From assembly GCF_024734405.1 (NCBI RefSeq), contig NZ_CP059556.1, positions 5,022,001-5,086,000 of the forward strand: 64,000 bases of DNA, given 5' to 3'. Shown here in pieces: positions 36,843 through 45,259 of the stretch. Position numbers and translations under genes: made by a program. The stretch is from Saccharopolyspora gregorii. Lineage in GTDB: Bacteria > Actinomycetota > Actinomycetes > Mycobacteriales > Pseudonocardiaceae. The notes under the pieces are model-generated. The model searched no databases. It saw only the letters and a program-made list of their open reading frames with translations, and was not told the DNA's origin. Each line of letters opens with the position of its first letter. Within the stretch, counting starts at the first letter, position 1.

Positions 36843-37293
36843 ACCCCGCTGCCCGCGCCGCGTTCGGCGCAGCGCGCACCGCCGGGTGGCGCAGCCGTCC
36901 CGCGCGTTCGTGCGGAATTCCGCCGAGTCCGGCCCCGCGCGCCCGTGCGCGGGCAGGATGCGGCCCGTGCGGCCGGCGAGCACGGGCGCACCACAGTCCC
37001 GGCGGCGGCGGGAAACCCCGACCTCCGGCCGTCGCCGGGCGGCCCGTTTCGTCCGCTGCCTCCCCGTTCCTCCCACCTCCGGCGGATAGCGGGATCGCTG
37101 ACTCAGGGTGTTTTGGCGGAACACTAAACTTCACCCCAAGTGGCCATGAGAGAGTGCGGATCAACTACGCGACGGCGGCGCGTCGCAGCGCAGCCGAGCG
37201 GAATCGCGGCGCGAAACCACACTTTCGGGTGAGCCAGTGAACCTCGGCGGCAAGGATCAAGGTGCAACGACAAGTCGGGGGCGTGTGCGGGAG
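36843..37293. other. Intergenic region upstream of the ADP-ribosylglycohydrolase genes
   Basis: I see no gene in these 451 nt. The part from 37100 to 37200 is noticeably less GC-rich than its surroundings and probably holds the promoter. It contains an inverted repeat GTGTT-N7-AACAC (37108-37124) and TAAACT (37125-37130) as a possible -10. No matching -35 is evident. The 36843-37100 part looks like spacer sequence. Confidence 0.4.
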
Positions 37294-40200
37294 ATGAACA
37301 CCCAGCAGCCGAGCCGGCCGGTGATCACGCCGGCCATGCGCGAACAGGCCGCCAAGCAGCCGAACACCTGGCTGTACGTGGTGGATCCGATCTTCAGCGA
37401 CCCCAGCTCCGAAGTCCCGCCCTGGGGCTTCATCGGCGGCTACCGGGTCGACGCGCGCGGTGAGCTCACCGAGGACTTCTCGTCCAACCCGAACTACCGC
37501 CCCTCCCCCGTCGCGCTGCGGCTGCCCGCGCCGACCAACGACGTCGAACGCGCCCTGCAGCTGACCACCACCGGCTACGCGCAGGCGCCCACCCTGTTCG
37601 CCGCGCTGCTGGACGCCGAGCTGATCCTGTTCGCGCAGCCGCAGGGCAGCGGGCTGTTCACGATGGACCACGAGTCCGGCAGGCGGCAGCTGCAGCTGTT
37701 CACCTCCGAGGGCTACCTGCCCGCGAACTGGACCAGCTGGCAGCGGATGACCGGCAGGCAGCTCGTCGAGCGCGGCCCCACCGGCATGGACCTGCAGATC
37801 AACCCGACCAGCCAGGTCAAGGCGCGCATCCCCGGCGAGGACCTGATCAAGGCCGCCGGCGGGCCCAGCACCCCCGCACCGCCCGCGTCCTTCGCCGCCC
37901 CGTCCGCGCCCGTCGCGCCCGCCGCCCCCGCGACCCCGCCGACCGCCCCCGCCGCACCGAGCGCCCCCGCCGCACCTCCCGCCGACGTCACGCAGCCCGC
38001 GAAGGTTCCCGGGGCCGCGCAGCAGGCCCCCGACCCGATCAGCAGCGACCACGGGCAGCGGTTCCTCGGCAGCATGCTGGCCGCGGCCGCCGGGGACGCG
38101 CTGGGCGGCCCCGTCGAGACCTATCCGGTGGAGCGGATCCGCAGCCGCTTCGGCGAGCGCGGCATCACCGACTACGACCGCACGGGCGAGCACTCGGGCG
38201 AGTTCACCGACGACACCCAGCTGATCCTGTTCACGCTGGAAGGGCTGATCCGCGGGCACGTCGCCACCCGCGGCGGCGCCACCGGCGGCCCGCTGCCCGC
38301 GGTGCAGCTGGCCTATCAGCGCTGGTTGCACACCCAGGGCCACGCGTGGGCGCGCGTGGCGGGCCCGTTCGCCGAGCAGCACCCGGAACCGACCGGCTGG
38401 CTCGTCGCCGAACGCGACCTGTTCGCGGTGCGCTCGCCGAACGCCGAGTGCATCACCGCGCTGCGCGAGTTCGCCACGCACGGCCGCCCCGGCACGTTCC
38501 AGCGCCCGATCAACGACTCGGACGACAACACCGGCGTGGTGCGCGCCGCGCCGTTCGCGCTGTGGTCCGAGGACCCGCGCGAGGTGTTCCGGCTCGCCGC
38601 CGCGGGGGCCGCGCTGACCTGCGCGAAGCCCAGCGGCTACCTGCCCGCCGGGGTGCTGGCGGTGCTGGTGCACCGGCTGCTGCGCGGCGAGTCGCTGCCG
38701 GACGCGCTGACCCTGGCCCGCGAGCTGCTCGCCGAGTGCGAGGGGCACCAGCAGACCGAACGGCTGCTGCTGGTCGCCGAAGACCTCGCCGCGCAGGGCG
38801 CTCCCACCGCGGAGCAGCTCAAGGACCTGCTCGGCGGTGGCTGGAGCGGGCACGAGGCGCTGGCCATCGCGGTCTGCGCGGCGCTGAGCCACGACGGTGT
38901 CGGCCCGGCCGTGATGGCCGCGGTGAACCACTCCGGCGACAGCGATTCGACCGGCGCGATCTGCGGCGCGATCGTCGGCGCCCGGCACGGTGCGTCCGCG
39001 CTGCCCGGCGTGTGGCTGCGGGACCTCGGGCAGCGGGAGACCGTCGAGAAGTTGACCGCGGACGCGCTGGTCGAGTTCGGCCCGCAGCCGCGCACCGACG
39101 AGACGTGGGCGCAGCGGTACCCGGCGGCGAAGGACTTGATCGACCTGGAGTTCCCGGCGGAGCTGCCGCGCTCGGCGCGGACGGGCACCGCCGGGTCGCC
39201 GAGCACGACACCGGAGAAGACCGCCGGGTCGCCGAGCACGGCGTCCGAGAAGAGCGGCGAGCAGTCGAGCACGACACCGGAGAAGACCGGCGAGCAGTCG
39301 AACTCGGGGCCGGAGAAGACCGCGGAGCAGCCGGGCTCGGCGCGGGAGGGCGCGACCGAGCGCACCACCGAGCAGCCCGCGATCCGGGACGAGGCGTCGG
39401 CGCCGGAGGAGTCCGCGCCGGTGGCCAGGTTCCCGATCCCGGGCGGTGCCGCGCGCAGCGGCGACGAGCAGCCGGCCACGGCCGGGAAACCCGCACCGGA
39501 GTCCACTTCGGACGGACCGGCGGGCCTCGCCCCCGGTGGCCGCACCCCGGCGGTGCCCGATGGGACCGCCGAGGACGCCGGCGCGGTTTCGGAGGAGGAC
39601 GCGCAGCCCGAGCAGGACTCGGCCCCGGAGCGGGCCGACGCTCCGGAGCGGACCGAGAAGCCCGCGCGAACCGGGAAACCCGAGCAGACCCCGAAGCCCG
39701 AACAAGCCGAGCAGCCCCAGCAGGACGAGCAGCCCCAGCAGGACGCGAAGTCCGAGCGGAGCACCGCCGACCAGGCCGCGCCGGACGCCCCGGCCGCCGC
39801 ACCGCTGCCCACGATGGGTTCCTGGCCCGCGACCTCCTCGAACGGCCGCGACGGCGCCGCCGAGCAGGACGGGACCACGGCCGGGAGCGAGACCGCCGAG
39901 CCCGGGTCCGCCGACGAGGCCGCGGCGCACGCCCGCGGTGCGGCGCAGCAGCCGGCGGCGCCGCTGACCGAGCGGATCGCGATGCCGCGGTCCGGCCCGG
40001 CCACCCGGAACTCCGGCGGTGCGCCGCAGCCGGCCGCGAAGCAGCCACCGGTCACCACCACCCGCGAACTCGCCGAGCCCGCCACCGAACGCGGCGCCCG
40101 CATCCTCGGCTGCCTGCTCGGCGGCGCGGTCGGCGACGCCCTCGGCTACCCGGTGGAGGACGACTCCATCGAAAAGATCCGCGCCGACCACGGCGCGGCG

Positions 40201-42825
40201 GGCGTGGTCGACTTCGCCGACGCGCACCGCCCCGGCGGATCGATCAGCGACGACACCCAGCTGACCCTGTTCACCACCGACGGCCTCATCCGCGCCTCGA
40301 TCCGCCGCAGGCTCTACGACGAGACCGATCCGGCGCAGCAGGTGCAGCACGCCTACCAGCGCTGGCTGCACACCCAGGGCTTCGACTGGAAGGACGCGGG
40401 CGGGCCGATCGCGGTGACGCCGCCGGACGGCTGGCTGATCCGGGAGAAGGGCCTGTTCGTGCGCCGCGCGCCCGGCGCCACCTGCGTGCAGGCGCTGCAC
40501 GGCTACGCCACCAGCGGGCGGCTGGGCACCTTGACGAACCGGATCAACGACTCGAAGGGCTGCGGCGGCGTGATGCGCGCGGCGCCCGCCGGGTTCTGGT
40601 CCGACGATCCGGCCGAGACGTTCCGGGTGGGCGCGGCCACCGCGGCGCTGACCCACGGGCACCCGAGCGGGTTCCTGCCCGCCGGAGCGCTCGCGGTGAT
40701 CGTGGCGCAGCTGCTCGGCGGCCGGTCGTTGCCGGAGGCGGTGGACCGGGCGCTGACCGAGCTGTCCGGCTGGGAAGGGCACGAGGAGACCACCAGCGCG
40801 TTGCGCCGCGCGATCGAGCTGGCCACCGAGGGCACGCCGACGCCGGAGCAGATCCAGCACCGGCTCGGCGACGGCCGGGTCGGCGAGCAGGCGCTGGCCA
40901 TCGCGGTGTGCGCCGCGCTGGCGCGCCCGTTCTCCTACACCGACGCGGTCGTGCTGGCCGCGAACCACTCCGGTGACAGCGACGCGACCGCCTCGATCTG
41001 CGGCAACATCATGGGCACCGCGCACATGGCGAGCGCGATCCCGGAGAACTGGCGGCAGCGGGTGGAGCTCGGCGAGGTCGTCGAGCAGCTGGCGCGGGAT
41101 GCCACCGAGGAGTTCGGCGAGCACCCGCCGTCGGTGCCGGAGTGGCTGCGCCGCTACCCGGCGGGCAGCTCCCCCGCTGCGGGTTCGGACGGCGCGGCCG
41201 CTGCGGGTTCGGACGGCGCCGCCGCTGCGGGTTCGGACGGCGCCGCCGCGAAGCCGGAGCGCGAGTCCGCGCGGCCCGCCCCGGAGACGGCGGCCGAGCA
41301 GACCATGGTGATGGCGCCCATCCCCGCCGTGCCCGACGAACCCCCGGCGAGCGCGCCCGCGGCGAAGCCGGCGACCTCGGCGGGGCCGAAGGGGAGCGCA
41401 TCCGAACCGGCGGCGAGCGCCCCCGAACGGGCCGCGGAACGGGGCGAGGCCGCAGCGCCCGCATCGGCGGCGCCGGTCGCCGCAGCACCGGCCGTCCCCG
41501 AGTCCCCGACAGCTTCCGAAACCCCGGCCGAGACCCCCGCCGACCCCGCGGACGAGGATCCCGGCGACGGCCTCAACGACGAGGAGCTGCGGCTGCTCGC
41601 CGCGTGGCGCAAGTTCCGCGACGGCGAGGACGACACGCCCAACGACCTCTCCGAGGGCCTGCACAAGCTGCTGCAGGAGGCGTTCGGCCCGGAGCGCGCC
41701 GCGCAGCTGGTCGCCGCGAACGAGGCCGACGGCGAGCTGCCCGCGGAGGTCCCCGCCGAGCTGGACCGCCTGGACCGGCTCGCCGGTTGCGCGCTCGGCG
41801 TGGTCGCCGGTGACGCGCTGGGCGCCCCGTGGACCTTCCTGTCGCAGCGGGCGATCCTGCGCCGCAACCCGGACGGGGTGCGCGAGCTCGCCGAGCACCT
41901 GGGTGGCCGCGGCCTGTCCACCTCGATCGGCCAGCAGTCGGTGTTCCTGCTCGACGGGCTGCTCCGCTCGTCCGTCCACAAGGGACTGAACAGGCCGGGT
42001 CCGTCGACCGCCGAACTGGTCCGCGGCACCCTCCAGCACTGGGTGATCGCCCAGGGCGCCCCGGTCGAACCGGCCGTGCAGCCCGCGGAGCTCGTCGGGC
42101 AGCCCGCGCTCGGCGCGCAGCGCTTCCCCGACGAAGCGGGCGTCACCGCGCTGGCCACCTGGGACGGGCGGAGCCCGGTGCCGACGCCGAGCACGCCGCC
42201 GAACCAGGCCACCGGCGCGGCCGCGGCCGCCCGCGGCGCCGTCGTCGGCCTGCACGCCGACAGCCCGGGCGCGGCAGTCGAACTCGGCATCGCCACCGGG
42301 GTGCTCACCCACGGCCACCCGGACGGCTACCTGCCCGCCGCCGCCGTCGCCGGGATGGTCGCCGCGCTGTCCGCCGGGCAGACCCTCGCCGAGAGCGCGC
42401 ACACCACGCTCACCGAGCTGAAGGCCTGGGAGGGCAGCGAGAACACGGTGCGGGCGCTGCGCGACGCGCTGACCCTCGCCGAGCACGGCCCGGTCCCGGT
42501 GCCCGCGCTGGAGAAGCTCGGCGCGGGCAGGCACGCGCCCGCCGCGCTCGGCGTCGCGGTCGCCGCCGCGCTGACGCACCCGGATTCGTTCGCCGACGCC
42601 GTCGCGCTCGCCGCCTCCCATTCCGGGGACAGCGCGGCCACCGCGGCGCTGTGCGGCGGACTGCTGGGCGCCGCGCGCGGTGCGGCGGAGATCCCCGCGG
42701 AATGGCTCGATCAGCTGGAACTGCACGAGCAGGTGCAGCGGCTCGTCGCCGACGCCGGGCGGGTCGAGACCGATCTCGTCCCGGACGGCACGGCGCCGGA
42801 CTGGACCCGGCGATACACGCAGTAA
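37294..42825 (+). CDS. SseB-like protein with three ADP-ribosylglycohydrolase domains
   Basis: This 1843-residue protein has an SseB-like N-terminal domain (about 10-190, NTWLYVVDPIFSDPSSEVPPWG), an Ala/Pro linker and three ARH/DraG-type domains. ARH1 (about 250-620) has metal motifs TDDT at 305-308 and GDSD at 548-551; ARH2 (about 930-1290) has SDDT at 985-988 and GDSD at 1227-1230. ARH3 (about 1490-1840) has TSIG in place of DDT at 1543-1546 and GDSA at 1778-1781, so it lacks metal ligands. Domains are joined by long Glu/Pro/Ala-rich linkers with coding repeats. ARH enzymes remove ADP-ribose from proteins or nucleic acids. GTG at 37237 is an alternative start. No signal peptide. Confidence 0.88.
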   Translation: MNTQQPSRPVITPAMREQAAKQPNTWLYVVDPIFSDPSSEVPPWGFIGGYRVDARGELTEDFSSNPNYRPSPVALRLPAPTNDVERALQLTTTGYAQAPTLFAALLDAELILFAQPQGSGLFTMDHESGRRQLQLFTSEGYLPANWTSWQRMTGRQLVERGPTGMDLQINPTSQVKARIPGEDLIKAAGGPSTPAPPASFAAPSAPVAPAAPATPPTAPAAPSAPAAPPADVTQPAKVPGAAQQAPDPISSDHGQRFLGSMLAAAAGDALGGPVETYPVERIRSRFGERGITDYDRTGEHSGEFTDDTQLILFTLEGLIRGHVATRGGATGGPLPAVQLAYQRWLHTQGHAWARVAGPFAEQHPEPTGWLVAERDLFAVRSPNAECITALREFATHGRPGTFQRPINDSDDNTGVVRAAPFALWSEDPREVFRLAAAGAALTCAKPSGYLPAGVLAVLVHRLLRGESLPDALTLARELLAECEGHQQTERLLLVAEDLAAQGAPTAEQLKDLLGGGWSGHEALAIAVCAALSHDGVGPAVMAAVNHSGDSDSTGAICGAIVGARHGASALPGVWLRDLGQRETVEKLTADALVEFGPQPRTDETWAQRYPAAKDLIDLEFPAELPRSARTGTAGSPSTTPEKTAGSPSTASEKSGEQSSTTPEKTGEQSNSGPEKTAEQPGSAREGATERTTEQPAIRDEASAPEESAPVARFPIPGGAARSGDEQPATAGKPAPESTSDGPAGLAPGGRTPAVPDGTAEDAGAVSEEDAQPEQDSAPERADAPERTEKPARTGKPEQTPKPEQAEQPQQDEQPQQDAKSERSTADQAAPDAPAAAPLPTMGSWPATSSNGRDGAAEQDGTTAGSETAEPGSADEAAAHARGAAQQPAAPLTERIAMPRSGPATRNSGGAPQPAAKQPPVTTTRELAEPATERGARILGCLLGGAVGDALGYPVEDDSIEKIRADHGAAGVVDFADAHRPGGSISDDTQLTLFTTDGLIRASIRRRLYDETDPAQQVQHAYQRWLHTQGFDWKDAGGPIAVTPPDGWLIREKGLFVRRAPGATCVQALHGYATSGRLGTLTNRINDSKGCGGVMRAAPAGFWSDDPAETFRVGAATAALTHGHPSGFLPAGALAVIVAQLLGGRSLPEAVDRALTELSGWEGHEETTSALRRAIELATEGTPTPEQIQHRLGDGRVGEQALAIAVCAALARPFSYTDAVVLAANHSGDSDATASICGNIMGTAHMASAIPENWRQRVELGEVVEQLARDATEEFGEHPPSVPEWLRRYPAGSSPAAGSDGAAAAGSDGAAAAGSDGAAAKPERESARPAPETAAEQTMVMAPIPAVPDEPPASAPAAKPATSAGPKGSASEPAASAPERAAERGEAAAPASAAPVAAAPAVPESPTASETPAETPADPADEDPGDGLNDEELRLLAAWRKFRDGEDDTPNDLSEGLHKLLQEAFGPERAAQLVAANEADGELPAEVPAELDRLDRLAGCALGVVAGDALGAPWTFLSQRAILRRNPDGVRELAEHLGGRGLSTSIGQQSVFLLDGLLRSSVHKGLNRPGPSTAELVRGTLQHWVIAQGAPVEPAVQPAELVGQPALGAQRFPDEAGVTALATWDGRSPVPTPSTPPNQATGAAAAARGAVVGLHADSPGAAVELGIATGVLTHGHPDGYLPAAAVAGMVAALSAGQTLAESAHTTLTELKAWEGSENTVRALRDALTLAEHGPVPVPALEKLGAGRHAPAALGVAVAAALTHPDSFADAVALAASHSGDSAATAALCGGLLGAARGAAEIPAEWLDQLELHEQVQRLVADAGRVETDLVPDGTAPDWTRRYTQ
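39193..39324. repeat. 33-nt coding repeat x4 in first ARH linker
   Basis: Four degenerate 33-nt units (starts 39193, 39226, 39259, 39292) encode 11-residue blocks of the type GSPSTTPEKTA, GSPSTASEKSG, EQSSTTPEKTG and EQSNSGPEKTA, inside the disordered linker between ARH1 and ARH2. Confidence 0.75.
41176..41247. repeat. 24-nt coding repeat x3 in second ARH linker
   Basis: Three nearly identical 24-nt units (starts 41176, 41200, 41224) encode AAGSDGAA blocks between ARH2 and ARH3. The copies differ at about one base, so the duplication is recent. Confidence 0.8.
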
Positions 42826-42835
42826 CGTTGCTCAG

Positions 42836-45259
42836 GTGAAGGATTCTCGCGACGGGCTCACCGAGGCGGAACGGGCGTTGCTGGCGGCGTACCGGGAGCG
42901 GCGCCGGGCGGCGGCGCCGGACGCGCCGCCCGCGACCGCCGCGGAGCCCGGCCCGGAATCCGGCGCGCCGCGCACCGGGCCCGCCGACGCGGACGAGCGG
43001 GTGCTGCTGGAGCGGTGGCGCTCCTGGCGCGACCGGCCGTTGACCCGGCCGCCGTGGTTCGCCGCGCTGCGCCAGCGCATCGGCACCGACCCGGCACCGC
43101 CGGTGCCCGCCACCGGCCTCGCCGACGACTCCGGTTACCGGCCGGACGCGGCGAGCCGGTTCGCCGGGATGCTGCTGGGCGCGGCGAGCGCCGAGCACGC
43201 CGCCACCGGCCGGATCGGCGAGCGCACCACGGCACTGCTGTTCGCGCTGGAAGGCGTGATCCGCGCGCACACCGCGCTGCGCGCGCACGGCGCCACCGAC
43301 CTCACCACGTTCGTCCTCAATGGACTGCAGCGCTGGTTGCACACCCGGGGCGTCCCCTGGCAGGACTGCGTCGCCGAACCCGCGGGCGAACCCGACGGCT
43401 GGCTCGTCGAACAGCGGGAACTGCACGGCGACACCGTCGACGACCGGGCGCTGCTGACGGCGCTGACCCGCATCGCCGCCGGGGGCCGCGCCTCCGCGCA
43501 CGCCGCCGGCGCCGGTGCGGTACCGCTGGGCGCGGTGGCCGCGCTGTGGTCCGGCAGCGAGGTGTTCGGCACCGCCGCGAACCTCGCCGCGCTCACCCAC
43601 GGCCACCCCGACGGCAACCGCCCCGCCGGGGCGCTCGGCGTCGCGATCTCGTTGCTGCTGCGGGGGAATCCGCTGACCGCAGCCCTGGACGGCGCGCTCG
43701 CCGCCTGGGAACCGGCCGACTCCCGGCCCGCGCTGCTCGACCGCGCCCTGCACCTCGGCAGCACCAGCCCCGTCGGGTTCGTCCCGGGCGCCGCGCAGCT
43801 CGACGCGATGAGCCCCGGCCGGACCGGCACCGAAGCGCTCGCCGCGGCGCTGCGCATCACCGCCGCCTGCCCCGACGACTTCACCGCCGCCATCGCCGCC
43901 GCCACCGACCACGCCGGCGACACCCGCAGCACCGCGGTGCTGTGCGGCCAGCTGCTCGGCGCCGCGCACGGGCCCGCCGCGATCCCCTTACCCGGCACGG
44001 GGAAACCGGCCGTGCTCGCCGCGCTCGAACGGCTCGCCGAGGACGCCGCCGCCGAATTCGGCCCTTACCCGGACGAATCCGAGGAATGGCTGCGCCGCTA
44101 CCCCGTCGGTGCCCCCGCCCACGAACCCGATCGGCGAAGGAGCCTGCACGCCGTGCCCAGACTCGCCGCGTCCAGAGACCGCTTCCTCGGCGCCGTGCTC
44201 GGCTGCGCCATCGGCGAAGCCCTCGGCACCCCCGTCGCCGGGGACAGCTGGGACGAGATCCGGGACCGGCACGGGCCGCAGGGCCTGCGCAACTACGTGC
44301 CCGCCGGGCACCCCGCGGGCAGGCTCGGCAGCGACACCCAGCTGCTGCTGTTCTCCCTCGAAGGCACCATCCGCGCCGGGGTGAGCCGCCGCAGCGGCGA
44401 CGTGCCCGACCCGTCGCGGCACATCCAGCACGCCTACCAGCGCTGGCTGCACACCCAGCACCTCAGCTGGGGCCGCGCCGCGGGCGAATTCCTCAAGCAC
44501 ACCCCCGCGCCGGACGGCTGGCTGGTGGGGCACCGCGCGCTGTTCCAGACCCGCAACCCGGGGCGCACCATGATGCGCACGCTCATCGCCTTCGCCAAGG
44601 GGCAGCAGCCGATGGGCACCCCGGAACGCCCGGTCAGCGACTCGCAGGGCAGCACCGCGGTGATGCGCGCCGTCCCGGCCGCGCTGTGGAGCTCCGACCC
44701 GTCCGAGGTGTTCCGCGTCGGCCAGAACACCGCCGCGCTCACCCACGGCGACCCGGTCGCCTACCTCAGCGCGGGCACCCTCGCCTTCCTGGTGTCCCGG
44801 CTGCTCGACGGGCGCGAGCTCGCGGCCGCCGTCGACGAGGCGCTCGACGAGCTCAGCGGGCACCGCGGTCACCAGGACGTCACCCGCAAGGTCTCCGCGG
44901 CGGTCCGCTACGCCGCCTCCGCCGAGACCACGCCCACCCACTTGGAGAGCGGGATCGGCAACGGGTGGAGCGCCGCCGACGCGCTCGGCATCGGGCTGTA
45001 CGCGGCACTCGTCGCCGACGGGGACATCGACGTGGCGCTGCCGCTGGCGGTGAACCACTCCGGCAACTCGGCCACCACCGGCGCGGTCTGCGGCAGCCTC
45101 GTCGGCGCCCAGTCCGGGGCGGCGAAGATCCCCGACCGCTGGCGCACCGAACTGGAGCTGCACGACGTCATCGAGCAGCTCGCGCACGACGCGAGCCTCG
45201 AATTCGGGCCGCACCCGCCGGAAGCGGCCGACTGGACCACCCGGTACCCGCCCACCTGA
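42836..45259 (+). CDS. Two-domain ADP-ribosylglycohydrolase-like protein, both sites degenerate
   Basis: This 807-residue protein starts 10 nt after the previous gene. A charged N-terminus (DGLTEAERALLAAYRERRR, LLERWRSWRD) precedes two ARH-type domains. In the first (about 105-430) the DDT motif is RTT (130-132) and GDSD is GDTR (361-364). In the second (about 445-800) DDT is SDT (499-501) and GDSD is GNSA (743-746). The family motif AYQRWLHTQ is kept in the second and QRWLHTRG in the first, so the fold is retained while metal ligands are lost. GTG at 42836 is preceded by TAACGT with a 7-nt gap that includes the upstream stop codon, so it may have its own leaderless promoter. Confidence 0.88.
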   Translation: MKDSRDGLTEAERALLAAYRERRRAAAPDAPPATAAEPGPESGAPRTGPADADERVLLERWRSWRDRPLTRPPWFAALRQRIGTDPAPPVPATGLADDSGYRPDAASRFAGMLLGAASAEHAATGRIGERTTALLFALEGVIRAHTALRAHGATDLTTFVLNGLQRWLHTRGVPWQDCVAEPAGEPDGWLVEQRELHGDTVDDRALLTALTRIAAGGRASAHAAGAGAVPLGAVAALWSGSEVFGTAANLAALTHGHPDGNRPAGALGVAISLLLRGNPLTAALDGALAAWEPADSRPALLDRALHLGSTSPVGFVPGAAQLDAMSPGRTGTEALAAALRITAACPDDFTAAIAAATDHAGDTRSTAVLCGQLLGAAHGPAAIPLPGTGKPAVLAALERLAEDAAAEFGPYPDESEEWLRRYPVGAPAHEPDRRRSLHAVPRLAASRDRFLGAVLGCAIGEALGTPVAGDSWDEIRDRHGPQGLRNYVPAGHPAGRLGSDTQLLLFSLEGTIRAGVSRRSGDVPDPSRHIQHAYQRWLHTQHLSWGRAAGEFLKHTPAPDGWLVGHRALFQTRNPGRTMMRTLIAFAKGQQPMGTPERPVSDSQGSTAVMRAVPAALWSSDPSEVFRVGQNTAALTHGDPVAYLSAGTLAFLVSRLLDGRELAAAVDEALDELSGHRGHQDVTRKVSAAVRYAASAETTPTHLESGIGNGWSAADALGIGLYAALVADGDIDVALPLAVNHSGNSATTGAVCGSLVGAQSGAAKIPDRWRTELELHDVIEQLAHDASLEFGPHPPEAADWTTRYPPT

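Follow-up and report, generated by a model that had tools for sequence, protein, structure and literature searches.

A syntenic array of five ADP-ribosylglycohydrolase domains with altered catalytic motifs in Saccharopolyspora and its relatives

ADP-ribosylglycohydrolase (ARH) immunity proteins are familiar as enzymes that undo the modification made by a toxin, and ARH immunity to ADP-ribosyltransferase (ART) toxins is described in the relevant text of Zhang et al. 2012 (PMC3482391). Here we analyze two adjacent + strand genes of Saccharopolyspora gregorii that together hold five ARH domains, three in gene 1 and two in gene 2, referred to as D1 to D5. They lie in a window of 64,000 nucleotides (the whole stretch analyzed, positions 5,022,001 to 5,086,000 of contig NZ_CP059556.1) from a 6.34 Mb single-contig genome. 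The array resembles the Imm-ARG and Tri1 immunity proteins in its ARH fold, in the secretion-linked toxin loci that house relatives of its domains, and in the ARH1-type E...SDDT...DSDS motif borne by its live relatives. It differs from them in having five domains, of which three lack a metal site and none is fully canonical in the window, and in occupying a fixed chromosomal place with no toxin detected adjacent; it also scores only 101.7 bits against the Tri1 equivalog model NF041672, whose cut-off is 490. Similarly, D1 shares the fold and acidic motifs of DraG, but the array reaches 123.7 bits against the equivalog model TIGR02662 (cut-off 337). Vertebrate ARH2/ADPRHL1 and similar proteins use the ARH fold outside simple hydrolysis, in roles that are unknown or non-catalytic, but these are single-domain and eukaryotic while the array is five-domain and bacterial. 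The polyimmunity proteins of Zhang et al. 2012 likewise string several immunity-type domains in one protein, whereas the array repeats one fold, mostly without a catalytic site, and is syntenic across genera. A literature search, which left most subscription journals uncovered, returned no paper on multi-ARH arrays as judged from titles and the beginnings of abstracts, none joining SseB, type VII secretion systems (T7SSs) and actinobacteria, and none with even two of three names for the Listeria ART-ARH pair.

Our preferred reading, to which we give a probability of roughly 0.4, is that the array is a fixed, orphan and largely non-catalytic relative of the ARH immunity proteins of T7SS loci, working by binding over turnover. 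All five folds are kept while three sites are broken and two altered, which suggests that the array works mainly by binding. The most economical account is that it shares ancestry with a T7SS-linked ARH stock and shifted from hydrolysis towards binding. In such a mechanism, the N-terminal domain of gene 1 would dock a T7SS-related partner, and the ARH domains, carried on long linkers in gene 1, would bind an ADP-ribosylating or nicotinamide adenine dinucleotide (NAD)-consuming toxin or a modified target, any remaining catalysis being confined to D1 or D2 of some species. The docking, the binding and any immunity function are inferred; candidates for the ligand include toxins, ADP-ribosylated targets and structural partners. 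A conserved, site-poor array held by purifying selection would demonstrate that binding by itself is enough for an ARH fold to protect or regulate. The features of the array are as follows:

37294..42825, + strand: gene 1, 1843 amino acids (aa), N-terminal domain followed by D1 to D3
37300..37860, + strand: N-terminal domain, a member of NCBIfam NF033532 (lone7para_assoc; 139 bits, cut-off 85) whose C-terminal half resembles SseB
38056..39123, + strand: D1, with E, TDD and D-D-S giving 7 of 7 metal ligands; pocket Cys-Gly replaced by Asn-Thr and His by Cys
39124..40095, + strand: low-complexity linker D1-D2, 324 aa
40096..41160, + strand: D2, with E, SDD and D-D-A giving 6 of 7 ligands; Cys-Gly and His present
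41161..41772, + strand: linker D2-D3, 204 aa
about 41572-41715 (estimated place), + strand: module 'LNDEELRLLAAWRKF...' inside the D2-D3 linker
41773..42819, + strand: D3, 2 of 7 ligands; His present
42836..45259, + strand: gene 2, 807 aa, D4 and D5, GTG start, beginning 10 bases past the stop of gene 1
43157..44104, + strand: D4, 2 of 7 ligands, without the N-terminal part that bears the conserved Glu; His present
44177..45250, + strand: D5, 2 of 7 ligands; its model resembles ARH3 (Z 34.6)

PF03747 was the sole Pfam family matched in gene 1 and gene 2. The five domains, which an earlier note made from the sequence alone had placed here in two adjacent genes, scored 210.4, 236.2, 156.6, 87.9 and 207.5 bits from D1 to D5 against a cut-off of 26.2, and their membership of the family is beyond chance by far. 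The match of D4 covers only profile positions 45-285, the first 44, including the conserved Glu, being missing. Across the genome, a profile search found 11 PF03747 matches. The reading frame of gene 1 opens at a GTG at 37237, with the ATG at 37294 as the likely start. The fold motif AYQRWLHTQ, counted earlier in four of the five domains, is exact in D1, D2 and D5, and a fourth copy is reached only if the GLQRWLHTR of D4 is accepted; D3 reads TLQHWVIAQ. The long linkers described for the array are a property of gene 1, where the one between D1 and D2 is the longest among 25 loci, and not of gene 2, where D4 and D5 are spaced by 24 aa.

The metal site of ARH enzymes offers a residue-level test of these domains. 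In human ARH3, Thr76, Asp77, Asp78 and Asp316 hold one Mg and Asp314, Asp316 and Thr317 the other, according to the metal-site text of PMC8141533; the corresponding text of PMC6309922 describes a conserved Glu, gives the ARH1 motif as E...SDDT...DSDS and states that mutation of any single coordinating residue kills activity. Seven ligands were scored by us, ARH3 E41, T76, D77, D78, D314, D316 and T317. We take Glu41 to be the ARH3 number of the conserved Glu. In the window D1 to D5 keep 7, 6, 2, 2 and 2 of them, so that a full site is found in D1 alone, and the ligand missing from D2 is a Thr/Ser replaced by Ala. The loss of the sites of D3 to D5 thus agrees with the earlier note, while its statement that D1 and D2 keep both motifs stands for the acidic residues only, given the Ala of D2 and the pocket residues that D1 lacks.

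Conservation of the substitutions in related genomes, proposed earlier as a check, was examined in a set of 26 orthologous loci (the window, 8 and 17 relatives). Two duplicates, L083 and L089 (of L054 and L059), were dropped, a further locus, L058, was counted apart, and L054 and L055 are identical in D1, D2 and D5. All seven ligands are present in 0/26 copies of D3, 0/25 of D4 and 0/25 of D5, with maxima per copy of 2, 3 and 2 respectively. D2 is variable, with 7 ligands in 7 of the 26 loci, 6 in 12, 5 in 5 and 2 in 2, and D1 keeps 7/7 in 25 loci and 6 in the remaining one. As judged from these residues, absence of the two-magnesium site from D3 to D5 is shared across genera.

The order of five domains, three plus two, is seen in 25 of the 26 loci; the exception, L084 (Halopolyspora), shows gene 1 only. 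Synteny was followed through six neighbors of the array in the window, namely CysH/D/N-like sulfate activation genes (names assigned by inspection) and CbiX upstream, and enoyl-CoA hydratase and hydroxyisobutyrate dehydrogenase downstream, with gene calls in the flanks taken from our own GC-position script. With the duplicates and L058 included, the hydratase flanks 28/28 orthologous loci and CbiX 27/28, the exception beginning at a contig end. The array therefore sits between the same housekeeping genes across Saccharopolyspora and related genera. L058 carries an N-terminal domain 83% identical to that of the window and two ARHs, one retaining 2/7 and the other 1/7 ligands, all in one open frame, and the hydratase follows directly, so gene 2 is absent there. 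With its conserved N-terminal domain and only dead ARHs, L058 must owe its conserved function to something other than ARH catalysis as currently understood. Apparent interruptions of the orthologous reading frames were noticed in L053 and L055 (between D1 and D2; inside D4), which may be sequencing errors or real.

Loss of catalytic residues alone would also be expected of decaying paralogues without function, to which the apparently interrupted frames of the G003 and G005 copies could be added. We consider this highly improbable and rejected it, as ratios of nonsynonymous to synonymous substitution (dN/dS; Nei-Gojobori, on three closest and two more distant genome pairs) indicate purifying selection in close genomes, and the five-domain order is identical in 25/26 loci. 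In the three closest pairs dN/dS is 0.12-0.23 for D1, 0.05-0.12 for D2, 0.11-0.22 for D3, 0.22-0.29 for D4 and 0.07-0.12 for D5, which places all five domains within 0.05-0.29. Purifying selection on D5 is thus as strong as on D1, and the array is not decaying. The pattern of loss is also uneven along the domain. Among 75 invariant columns, conserved in at least 95% of canonical domains (6 ligand and 69 other), the share retained by D5 is 0.16 for the six ligand columns versus 0.77 for the other 69. The non-ligand columns are kept at 0.81 in D1, 0.57 in D3 and 0.46 in D4, so D5 stands near the level of D1 with its ligand columns gone, and its catalytic site has been lost selectively.

The ADP-ribose pocket gives a second view of the same domains. 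In ARH1, Gly130 and His163 touch the pyrophosphate, and the pocket description of PMC6309922 calls both residues absolutely conserved across ARH1 and ARH3. For comparison we used 127 full-length domains from other loci, each matched over more than 280 columns; a full set of 7/7 ligands occurs in 78 of them, and Cys, Gly and His are present in 78/78. In the window both Gly and His are found in D2 and D4, while D1 has Thr/Cys, D3 Ala/His and D5 Thr/His. D1, with seven ligands and no pocket, therefore breaks the rule of the comparison set, and across the orthologues its His is present in 7/26 loci and lost in 19/26. The suggestion that catalysis is limited to two domains now looks too generous, because D1 has the metals without the pocket Gly and His, and D2 the pocket with 6/7 ligands. 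When a canonical domain is defined as seven ligands plus Gly and His, 15/26 loci, the window included, have none, and the other 11 have one or two.

These pocket counts bear on the idea that the array is a multivalent ADP-ribose reader, in which dead domains bind ADP-ribosylated proteins or nucleotides and D1 or D2 erases the mark. The pocket His is kept in all D2 to D5 copies (26/26, 26/26, 25/25 and 25/25) although the metal ligands of D3 to D5 are gone, while dead domains of other loci (at most 3 ligands) have it in 26/45. However, the neighboring Gly is present in only 0/26 copies of D3, 2/25 of D4 and 2/25 of D5. The 76/76 His copies of D3 to D5 are, moreover, related by descent and do not represent 76 independent events. 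The metal ions themselves touch the distal ribose in solved ARHs, according to the structural text of PMC8141533 and PMC6309922, which makes the affinity of D3 to D5 without metals uncertain. We regard a reader of this kind as possible, if somewhat unlikely.

A regulated eraser, in which D1 (or D2) hydrolyzes a narrow substrate while the other domains position or inhibit it, would explain the 7/7 ligands of D1 in 25/26 loci and the 11/26 loci with at least one fully canonical domain. It would also be in keeping with the same chromosomal place in Streptoalloteichus. In S. hindustanus (L093) CysN and CbiX lie upstream and the hydratase downstream of two N-terminal domains and three ARHs, all of which have the complete motif set. 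In S. tenebrarius (L094) the hydratase again lies downstream, and the same three canonical ARHs are accompanied by four dead ones. Doubling of the N-terminal domains at the shared place is a further feature of Streptoalloteichus. The site thus also hosts canonical enzymes in another genus, and as three canonical domains stand at the same place, ARH activity was probably lost in the Saccharopolyspora-type array. An eraser is harder to reconcile with the loss of the D1 His in 19/26 loci, with 15/26 loci lacking any canonical domain, as does L058, and with the 78/78 comparison domains that keep Cys, Gly and His beside 7/7 ligands, and we consider it quite improbable. These loci form a natural series of site losses that begins with the canonical domains of Streptoalloteichus and ends with L058, where every ARH is dead.

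The link between the array and T7SS-type loci comes from its relatives. In IQ-TREE, run on 122/258 domains, D1, D2, D4 and D5 each form one clade (ultrafast bootstrap, UFBoot, 98-100), and D3 does so once the D3-like domain of L058 is counted in (UFBoot 100), so the duplications are older than these species. D1 groups with ARHs of eight loci of the T7SS-linked type, seven of them with a TNT domain, besides L058 (UFBoot 100), and D2 with ARHs of eight loci, four with TNT (UFBoot 93). The deep relations of D4 and D5 appear unstable between methods: FastTree joins D4 to dead ARHs of three other loci, L009, L099 and L103 (support 0.89; wider group 0.93), whereas IQ-TREE puts D4 near D3 (UFBoot 78) and those dead ARHs with D1 instead.

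One of these loci, L009 (G000:C1:5884000-5903999), is a second ARH locus of the same genome, situated by inspection between the elongation factor G and RNA polymerase beta' genes. It holds a protein ending in TNT (84.9 bits), a dead ARH, an EspC-like and a YbaB-like protein, and a large protein whose WXG100_2 match stays below the threshold (24.2 bits versus 27). Two more ARH genes, which add one dead domain and two live ones, bring its ARH domains to four, two of them dead. Beyond the orthologues we collected 57 non-orthologous loci, L093 among them, found with a query resembling D2 in a scan that retained the best 80 of 524, so the co-occurrence of live beside dead ARHs in these loci is partly selected for. 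A TNT domain is present in 21/57, and TNT, EspC, WXG or YbaB in 29/57; the four profiles were built from single L009 seeds and can miss divergent members. The N-terminal domain and an ARH share one stop-to-stop frame, which can join neighboring genes, in 25/57, and in this clade the N-terminal domain is therefore not the unusual partner it had been taken for.

The association also appears from the side of the toxin, where no selection on ARHs was made. In 60 relatives, at least 12/113 TNT domains (two sub-cut-off rows left out) have a listed ARH no more than 10 kb away, against roughly one expected by a rough estimate; as the ARH list is incomplete, 12 is a lower bound. The ARH-adjacent TNTs are all among the lower-scoring ones, 12/31 versus 0/82 with a 94-bit split set after seeing the list, of which the 12/113 is independent. 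A poorly described T7SS-associated N-terminal domain and a divergent TNT subfamily are thereby tied to ARH proteins across Pseudonocardiaceae. In one locus (L107:11636-14512) a TNT domain and a dead ARH stand in one open frame, a possible fusion.

Several points weigh against a binding protein derived from T7SS immunity. TNT is an NAD glycohydrolase, whose action an ARH cannot reverse. The TNT, EspC, WXG and YbaB profiles matched 0/19 orthologous loci of one set and nothing in the window and nine others, although the flanks of the relatives were not covered by ART models; in the genome, PF03496 and PF01129 (both ARTs) gave no match, but their controls were silent too, making this result uninformative. 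The flanks of the array are housekeeping genes, and its vertical, syntenic inheritance is, in our judgment, unlike that of polymorphic immunity genes. D1 retains its metal site nearly throughout, and the place of the array is not non-catalytic everywhere, as all three ARHs of L093 are canonical. Finally, dN/dS is higher in the distant genome pairs (0.22-0.38 for G001-G004 and 0.39-0.66 for G000-G017), perhaps from saturated dS.

The N-terminal domain belongs to NF033532, named 'type VII secretion system-associated protein', which has 8 matches in the genome, 7 of them above the cut-off. The SseB likeness noted earlier appears to hold for its C-terminal half. PF07179 (SseB N-terminal) matches the domain weakly in the window (16.5 bits versus a gathering threshold of 21, E 0.0099), 20/35 members of the domain family at E up to 1 (best 1.6e-6), and another NF033532 protein of the genome above the cut-off (23.9 versus 21). 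An AlphaFold2 model from 35 sequences (mean predicted local distance difference test, pLDDT, 91.0) places the C-terminal half close to TTHA0547 (2z0r; Z 8.4 over 84 residues, root-mean-square deviation, rmsd, 3.0); with Foldseek alone, no PDB entry matched the N-terminal domain within the limit of E 0.001. For the first half (about residues 9-96), listed rows 6-28 of the structure comparison (Z 2.3-3.9) are all ART or Rhs toxin/immunity complex entries, with the chain of the Rhs/ART entry not specified in three rows and with Z below 8 possibly reflecting a common arrangement only. When the domain profile was run against PDB sequences, each of the eight matches up to E 10 was a heat-labile enterotoxin A chain (best E 0.078). 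Neither result is significant alone, and the ART likeness may be taken as a lead. A more speculative version, which we find unlikely, treats the array as split, with metals in D1 (His lost in 19/26) and His in D2 to D5 mostly without a complete metal set; it would capture T7SS toxins or ADP-ribosylated targets multivalently, and its N-terminal domain would be partly of ART descent. If true, this would put an ART-like relic and ARH modules in one protein.

The structure model of gene 2 (mean pLDDT 81.1, predicted template modeling score, pTM, 0.57) supports the fold of D5, which aligns with ARH3 (2qty) at Z 34.6 over 294 residues and rmsd 2.4. Aligned PDB rows cover mostly D5 (438-794), and the assignment of D4 rests on its profile match. 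Further matches include 6dre, presumably the Tre1-Tri1 toxin/immunity pair (Z 31.6, gene 2 residues 440-793, in D5), and the Listeria ART-ARH pair 8za7 (Z 30.1, range 136-791, mixing D4 and D5). Chains of the algal FtsHi motor complexes also match, at Z 28.0-29.7 with ranges across D4 and D5, as do chains of mitoribosomal small-subunit assemblies at Z 21.1-21.6. ARH-like chains in such large assemblies would favor a structural scaffold unrelated to ADP-ribose, in which the folds serve as building blocks of a large complex, as would the stable synteny and the L058 version with dead domains only. Conservation of the D1 ligands in 25/26 loci and of the pocket His in every D2 to D5 copy examined speaks against such a scaffold, which we find doubtful.

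Some smaller observations accompany these results. Under strict search conditions the 'LLAxWR' module lies upstream of 30/78 dead orthologous domains and 0/45 with 6-7 ligands; outside the orthologues it precedes 2/67 dead domains, both from L083 and L089, the duplicates of counted genomes. The module seems array-specific and carries little information. In the FtsHi complexes 8xks and 8xqw, an ARH-like chain occurs together with a chain that weakly matches the N-terminal domain beside Tic22 rows (Z below 5), an echo of the gene 1 fusion. Elsewhere in the genome (L071, G000:C1:852500-872000), a protein of more than 2,300 aa that matches nothing in Pfam (at E up to 0.01) or in NCBIfam is followed by three genes, which together contain four NF033532 domains. 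One gene of the genome with the N-terminal domain adjoins a papain-fold toxin gene with Imm35.

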